64,000 nucleotides of DNA from Desulforamulus hydrothermalis Lam5 = DSM 18033 (GTDB lineage Bacteria > Bacillota > Desulfotomaculia > Desulfotomaculales > Desulfotomaculaceae): the NCBI RefSeq assembly GCF_000315365.1, contig NZ_CAOS01000013.1, positions 186,001 to 250,000 on the forward strand, written 5' to 3'. A program made the translations under genes and the position numbers. Below are positions 21,133 through 45,878 of this stretch, piece after piece. The stretch's first letter is position 1. Every line of letters starts with the position of its first letter. Below the pieces are notes generated by a model. That model worked only from the letters and a program-made list of their open reading frames with translations. It had not been told where the DNA came from and did no database searches.

Positions 21133-21384
21133 TATAAGGTTGACAAAAATTATCGGTGGTTTATGATCCCCTTTGGCTCCGGTCTACGCACTGACAGCAC
21201 TGTGATTTGCTCCGGTCGCCCTTGGGGTCGCCGGGCCGGGAGCGCACCTCCAGGTGTCGCCCACATCCTGTGGGCGCTAAGGGCTCCTTTCGCTTATCAA
21301 GTGCTGTTACCGTGCTTGGACAAGTCGCCGACAGGGGAACATAAAACCACCTCACCTTGTTTGACAATCTTTGTCTACAGCTTG
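21133..21384 (+). mobile_element. degraded copy (252 bp) of the terminator-targeting repeat, copy 1
   Basis: Matches copy 2 over its whole length, including GGTGGTTTATGATCCCC at the left and CTTTGTCTACAG at the right, but with many substitutions and small deletions. A terminator hairpin (21388-21412) follows its right end; no matching hairpin is found on the left, so any duplicated target has been lost. Same orientation as copy 2. Confidence 0.8.
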
Positions 21385-21769: not shown

Positions 21770-21788
21770 AACCGGGCAAAGCCCGGTT
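21770..21788 (+). repeat. left duplicate of terminator hairpin flanking copy 2
   Basis: AACCGGGCAAAGCCCGGTT, repeated at 22053-22071 with one loop change (C to T). The left one lacks a T run; the right one has it. Confidence 0.9.
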
Positions 21789-22052
21789 CAGAGTGTTGAC
21801 AAACATCAGCGGTGGTTTATGATCCCCTTTGGCTCCGGTCTACGCACCGACAGCACTATGATTCGCTCCGGTCGCCCTTGGGGTCGCCTCAAACGGCCCC
21901 TCCTGGCCCGGTTCGGCTGGCGCCCACGTCCTGTGGGCGCCACCCCAATGGCTCCTTTCGCTCATCAAGTGCTGTGACCGGTGCTTCGACAAGTCGCCGA
22001 CCGGGGATCATAAAACCACCTCACTTTGTTTACAACCTTTGTCTACAGTCTG
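21789..22052 (+). mobile_element. 264-bp MITE-like terminator-targeting repeat, copy 2
   Basis: Non-coding, GC-rich, ends CAGAGTGTTGACAAAC... and ...TTTGTCTACAGTCTG, which are imperfect inverted repeats; inside them GGTGGTTTATGATCCCC faces GGGGATCATAAAACCACC. The central hairpin GGCGCCCAC-loop-GTGGGCGCC is at 21919-21941. Flanked by a duplicated terminator hairpin. No transposase inside. Opposite orientation to copies 3 and 4. Confidence 0.9.
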
Positions 22053-22076
22053 AACCGGGTAAAGCCCGGTTTTTGT
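22053..22076 (+). terminator. right duplicate of the hairpin, functional terminator
   Basis: AACCGGGTAAAGCCCGGTT followed by TTTGTTTTG. This copy keeps the T run and should still end transcripts from the FmdB gene that read through the element. Confidence 0.85.
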
Positions 22077-42818: not shown

Positions 42819-42843
42819 TAACCGGGGCGTTTAACCCCGGTTT
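42819..42843 (+). repeat. left duplicate of terminator hairpin flanking copy 3
   Basis: TAACCGGGGCGTT-AACCCCGGTTT type hairpin, 25 bases, repeated at 43108-43132 with one loop change. Confidence 0.9.
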
Positions 42844-43107
42844 CAGACTGTAGACAAAGGTGTAAAACAAAGTGAGGTGGTTTTATGATCCCCTGTCGGC
42901 GACTTGTCGAAGCACCGGTCACAGCACTTGATGAGCGAAAGGAGCCATTGGGGTGGCGCCCACAGGACGTGGGCGCCAGCCGAACCGGGCCAGGATGGCC
43001 CGTTTGAGGCGACCCCAAGGGCGACCGGAGCGAATCATAGTGCTGTCGGTGCGTAGACCGGAGCCAAAGGGGATCATAAGCCACCGCTAATGCATGTCGA
43101 CACTCTG
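42844..43107 (-). mobile_element. 264-bp MITE-like terminator-targeting repeat, copy 3
   Basis: Left end CAGACTGTAGACAAAGG, right end ...GTCGACACTCTG. Central hairpin at 42955-42977. Between GAGGTGG and GCTAAT it differs from copy 4 at only three positions, so both moved recently. A frame running through it on the minus strand is shared by the copies and is treated as a shadow of repeat conservation. Confidence 0.92.
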
Positions 43108-43135
43108 TAACCGGGGCGTTAAACCCCGGTTTAAT
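43108..43135. terminator. right duplicate of the hairpin, convergent terminator
   Basis: AACCGGGGCGTTAAACCCCGGTTT; serves the plus gene ending 42816 and abuts the minus gene ending 43131, whose stop codon lies in its last bases. Confidence 0.8.
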
Positions 43136-45557: not shown

Positions 45558-45583
45558 AAATGCGGCATTGTTCTGCCGCATTT
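45558..45583 (+). repeat. left duplicate of terminator hairpin flanking copy 4
   Basis: AAATGCGGCATTGTTCTGCC and on to CATTT, 26 bases, identical to 45848-45873. Confidence 0.93.
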
Positions 45584-45847
45584 AGACTGTAAACAAAGGT
45601 TGTAAAACAAAGTGAGGTGGTTTTATGATCCCCTGCCGGCGACTTGTCGAAGCACCGGTCACAGCACTTGATGAGCGAAAGGAGCCCTTGGGGTGGCGCC
45701 CACAGGACGTGGGCGCCAGCCGAACCGGGCCAGGAAGGCCCGTTTGAGGCGACCCCAAGGGCGACCGGAGCGAATCATAGTGCTGTCGGTGCGTAGACCG
45801 GAGCCAAAGGGGATCATAAGCCACCGCTAATTTTTGTTGATGCTCTG
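45584..45847 (-). mobile_element. 264-bp MITE-like terminator-targeting repeat, copy 4
   Basis: Left end AGACTGTAAACAAAGG, right end ...GTTGATGCTCTG. Central hairpin 45695-45717. Same orientation as copy 3, three core differences. Flanked by a perfect 26-bp duplication that is the sodA/murI terminator. Confidence 0.93.
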
Positions 45848-45878
45848 AAATGCGGCATTGTTCTGCCGCATTTTTTTA
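45848..45878. terminator. right duplicate, convergent sodA/murI terminator
   Basis: AATGCGGCA-TTGTTC-TGCCGCATT followed by TTTTTATT on the plus strand; the murI stop codon lies next to it on the minus strand. Confidence 0.88.

Follow-up and report, generated by a model that had tools for sequence, protein, structure and literature searches.

The window, a stretch of 64,000 nucleotides within the 2.69-Mb genome of a member of the genus Desulforamulus (G000), carries three copies of an element that is 264 bp long and whose inverted ends are related, each set between a pair of terminator hairpins. Direct reading confirmed the original prediction on the positions of all three copies and on the differences within the hairpin pairs (one in the 19-bp pair, one in the 25-bp pair and none in the 26-bp pair), and the hairpin sequence differs at each of the three loci. 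The count of three loci held as far as it went, but a fourth, decayed copy also lies in the window, about 400 bp away from copy C. The element is short, non-coding and multicopy, with terminal inverted repeats and target-site duplications, as expected of a MITE. The features are as follows.

21133..21384, minus strand: fourth MITE copy, decayed, 252 bp; hairpin duplication no longer recognisable; D. putei has a single hairpin and no element
21770..21788, no strand: left duplicated hairpin of copy C, AACCGGGCAAAGCCCGGTT; sister species have no element and a single hairpin here
21789..22052, minus strand: MITE copy C, 264 bp; the TwoAYGGAY sense strand is minus
22053..22071, no strand: right duplicated hairpin of copy C, AACCGGGTAAAGCCCGGTT, then a T-run
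42819..42843, no strand: left duplicated hairpin of copy A, 25 bp
42844..43107, plus strand: MITE copy A, 264 bp
42905..43059, plus strand: TwoAYGGAY RNA (RF01731), core of copy A; 57.8 bits against a gathering score of 43
43108..43132, no strand: right duplicated hairpin of copy A, 25 bp, one mismatch; single hairpin with the element absent in 4 sister species
45558..45583, no strand: left duplicated hairpin of copy B, 26 bp
45584..45847, plus strand: MITE copy B, 264 bp
45645..45799, plus strand: TwoAYGGAY RNA (RF01731), core of copy B; 53.7 bits against a gathering score of 43
45848..45873, no strand: right duplicated hairpin of copy B, 26 bp, identical, then a T-run; single hairpin with the element absent in 5 sister species

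Genome-wide copies and their flanking hairpins

A DNA search of G000 returned 40 near-full-length matches to the 264-bp element, and at least 57 unique copies have 200 bp or more aligned. In 50 of these 57 copies an automatic test detected a direct repeat abutting the two ends, whereas mismatched flank pairs, which served as the null, passed the same test in 76 of 3192 cases. Reading of the seven automatic failures raised the number of copies with hairpin-bearing flanks to 53: three were rescued (L022, L084 and L050, whose repeats are slightly shifted or imperfect in one copy), and each of the four copies left without duplicated flanks (window 21133-21384, L073, L046 and L075) has an end that is lost or decayed beyond recognition on at least one side. 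Almost all of the flanking repeats are hairpins, unrelated to one another in sequence, with a median of 22 bp and a usual range of 16-33 bp. Short, internally deleted derivatives with the same ends kept the duplication in 12 of 18 candidates, the other six including some likely chance pairings of ends. These tens of dispersed copies support the view that the element is mobile and that it inserts at, and duplicates, intrinsic-terminator hairpins. Since a few elements (L048 and L078) are apparently flanked by 7-8-bp repeats that are not hairpins, the targeting is a strong preference rather than an absolute one; at L007, just part of the hairpin seems to have been duplicated. Separately, an apparent tandem insertion at L064 (2983-3171) displays several end sequences around repeats of one hairpin (AAGTGAGAA...TTCTCACTT).

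Synteny is maintained across the genus, which allows the occupied sites to be compared with empty ones. Between the same genes, the element is absent and one terminator-like hairpin is found, by reading of the sequences, in four sister species at site A, five at site B and five at site C; the second hairpin copy is therefore a target-site duplication, as originally proposed, and none of the sister species compared has two hairpins without the element. That a hairpin adjoins nearly every copy could also be expected if the hairpins belonged to the element itself, as parts of a larger palindromic repeat. Yet the hairpins vary from locus to locus, mismatched flank pairs rarely align, and the single hairpin retained at the empty sites rules this reading out, leaving it virtually no probability. 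At L071 and L085, one terminator seemingly holds a 57-bp form in G000 and, in D. putei, a full copy facing the other way, which seems to reflect either independent insertions or an inversion.

The claim that only the right-hand hairpin keeps the T-run does not generalize: among 50 copies in G000, 13 have a run of at least four on the right alone, 12 on the left alone and 7 on both sides, while 18 have none. The ORFs flanking sites A and B are convergent, and the left copy at both sites keeps an A-run, that is, a T-run for the opposite gene. At a unidirectional terminator the T-run would stay with the distal copy, so that a complete terminator would remain downstream and the element would sit within the transcribed 3' region, and between convergent genes each side would keep its own run. 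Termination would probably survive insertion, since the T-run remains with the distal copy.

Shared ends and IS1182-family transposases

The ends CAGA-TGT-GACAAA, present on both sides of the element, recur in full-length elements of the IS1182 type in sister species. The end pattern CAGANTGTNGACAAA has 85 exact matches in G000, compared with 0 for a reversed control. In a genus-wide search for these ends, two D. putei contigs were found to start within one base of an end and to carry its counterpart 1.6 kb further on. The transposase of the D. putei element is at least 469 aa long, matches the NCBIfam IS1182 model NF033551 (456 bits, cut-off 270) and contains the Pfam domains DUF772, DDE_Tnp_1_6 and DDE_Tnp_1. 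Full copies with the same ends occur five times in a second genome (G008; 76% protein identity), and three full copies with somewhat different ends occur in a third (G004; 54-55% protein identity), both genomes being complete. All five and all three, respectively, lie between two hairpin copies, which are identical or near-identical in each of the eight cases. The transposases of these elements are thus of the NF033551 type or homologous to it; the window copies carry none.

The absence of a transposase from the window, as originally noted, extends for the cognate IS1182 enzyme to the whole of G000, in which no match was obtained at E <= 1e-60. Two DUF772 transposases of G000 were considered as partners and rejected, the ends of the element being absent there. 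A different DUF772 transposase gene (L031) lies inside an apparent CRISPR array with the repeat GTTATTAGCCTACCTATAAGGAATTGAAAC. Given the lack of a cognate match, the MITEs of G000 were presumably mobilised by a partner that has since been lost or has diverged too far for detection, and we infer from the shared ends that an IS1182 transposase would have acted in trans.

The original prediction had instead looked to an IS30-like partner, by analogy with IS1630 of Mycoplasma fermentans, an IS30-family element credited with whole-hairpin duplication (Calcutt et al. 1999). The precedent itself holds, to judge from the title of that paper, and its 16-26-bp duplicated junctions match the behaviour described here; HTH_38 matches are, moreover, present in G000. 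However, no good CAGA-TGT-GACAAA end pair surrounds any HTH_38 locus examined, no HTH_38 transposase was found adjoining the shared ends, and the elements that do have these ends encode IS1182-type DDE transposases with DUF772 and DDE_Tnp_1_6 domains. An IS30-type partner is accordingly very improbable, and IS1630 resembles the element in its hairpin-duplicating behaviour while differing in transposase family.

Hairpin duplication is not confined to Desulforamulus. A scan of named genomes yielded at least 80 loci of related transposases with 52-100% identity, and an automatic test identified a duplicated hairpin near the gene in 42 of the 78 tested among those listed, the genera with passing loci including Bacillus, Sporomusa, Tetragenococcus, Chakrabartyella and Romboutsia. 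Re-reading of 22 loci with an end search (two of which had already passed) brought to light at least one further matched pair, at L300; most of the remaining loci proved to have a hairpin at each end located, but not the same one on both sides. The duplication also accompanies a Providencia plasmid copy with 41% identity. No hairpin duplication was detected in more distant members of the IS1182 family (ISCfr1 and others, 24-28% identity, single examples each), and we therefore do not claim the trait for the whole family. Among named relatives, the nearest seen is ISEfa7 of Enterococcus faecium, with about 52% identity at the protein level; it shares the transposase family and the DUF772 and DDE_Tnp_1_6 domains and has the ends CAGACTGTAGACAAA. 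The window element differs from it in being only 264 bp long and devoid of a transposase, and the single ISEfa7 copy inspected showed no matching hairpins on its two sides.

In another genome, G007 (L218-L237), the hairpin to the left of a related MITE mostly differs from the one to its right, and in some cases the right-hand hairpin is matched by the left-hand one of a different copy. The G007 assembly is 72% complete, and the unlike flanking hairpins, which are also seen in some IS copies, fit recombination between copies or misassembly of contigs joined at repeats.

The TwoAYGGAY interior

The core of the element matches the Rfam family TwoAYGGAY (RF01731) above the gathering score and forms two GGA-loop hairpins, whose loops read AGGAC and AGGAT in the G000 consensus. 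Rfam types this family as a cis-regulatory RNA, whereas here it constitutes the interior of a multicopy transposable element. Across 60 genomes searched, RF01731 is multicopy in G000 (at least 38 matches), G046 (36), G007 (34), G019 (28), G016 (10) and G038 (9). Most of the G000 matches listed coincide with MITE copies, and cores lie between IS1182-like ends in at least five of the eight examined in G016 and in most of the 20 examined in G007. The TwoAYGGAY loci of G046, G038 and G019 (L238-L249 and L258-L277) displayed neither IS1182-like ends nor detectable hairpin duplication, and were rejected as MITEs of the same IS1182 type. The mobile-element claim therefore covers G000, G007 and G016 only. 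An initial inspection of the best direct repeats around divergent cores turned up little duplication.

CsrA binding of TwoAYGGAY has been predicted (Gardner and Eldai 2014, PMC4333381), which raises the question of whether the element serves chiefly as a regulatory RNA of the host, dispersed by transposition and kept by selection, rather than a simply selfish MITE. Beyond the RF01731 matches and that proposal, G000 contains a csrA gene; CsrA is present in 17 of 18 TwoAYGGAY-positive genomes compared with 21 of 42 negative ones (Fisher p ~0.001, or 0.007 without the genus of the window, both values ignoring phylogeny and genome type); and in the 57-copy consensus the interior diverges less than the ends (about 4% at paired positions, about 15% in the last 16 bp). 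On the other hand, the CsrA association is uncorrected for phylogeny, many copies carry internal deletions, G000 shows weak compensation at base pairs (13 double changes versus a shuffled mean of 6.4), and orientation relative to the terminator is unbiased (13 same, 12 opposite), so that selection for RNA orientation was discarded. We consider a chiefly regulatory nature quite unlikely, and regard the RNA interior as cargo of the MITE; a regulatory role for it is putative. A broader scenario, in which IS1182 MITEs landing in terminators would seed the 3' ends of many operons with CsrA-binding TwoAYGGAY RNAs and thereby build a transposon-dispersed network of CsrA decoys, is speculative and on balance unlikely. 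If true, TwoAYGGAY would be a mobile-element RNA and not a cis-regulatory leader.

Mechanism, precedents and significance

The pattern of copies, flanks and ends makes it highly probable that the 264-bp element belongs, as a non-autonomous MITE, to an IS1182 branch that targets hairpins and duplicates them whole. Under the proposed mechanism, the transposase would read the structure of the hairpin and join the element at the 5' feet of the stem, a step corresponding to the hypothetical pathway b drawn by Wan et al. 2017 as an alternative to IS1272 replacement (PMC5678879). Gap repair would then copy the stem-loop, and the duplication would therefore be hairpin-sized and variable in length.

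Recognition of structure has a precedent within the family: IS1272 and TnSha1 of staphylococci target stem-loops, including terminators, without sequence specificity (PMC4923244, PMC5678879), and a review cited in the latter paper is said to note palindrome targeting by some IS1182 members, without data. By contrast, IS1272 removes or replaces the hairpin and leaves no duplication, while here the whole hairpin is duplicated; with a hairpin on both sides in 53 of 57 MITE copies and 8 of 8 IS copies, replacement of the IS1272 type was rejected. The novelty originally suggested for a hairpin-duplicating MITE is thus upheld in part: none is described in the open papers searched, but stem-loop targeting was already known for IS1272. 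More generally, a search of open-access literature turned up no account of IS1182 elements or their MITEs duplicating hairpins, and none, in the titles and passages covered, of TwoAYGGAY within a mobile element. Structure targeting in the IS1182 family (IS1272) and hairpin duplication in the IS30 family (IS1630) are already known; what appears to be new, within the literature covered, is that hairpin duplication is the common outcome across a broad branch of IS1182 elements and that a MITE produces it.

In a broad branch of the IS1182 family, targets are chosen by structure and the common outcome is duplication of the whole hairpin, whereas IS1272 does the opposite. Because both outcomes occur in one family, comparing them could reveal what determines whether a hairpin is duplicated or replaced. 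Every insertion is tagged on either side with a hairpin of its own, so that subsequent recombination between copies can be read. Finally, an uncharacterised Rfam family is placed inside a mobile element in three of the genomes examined, and its proposed link to CsrA becomes directly testable.
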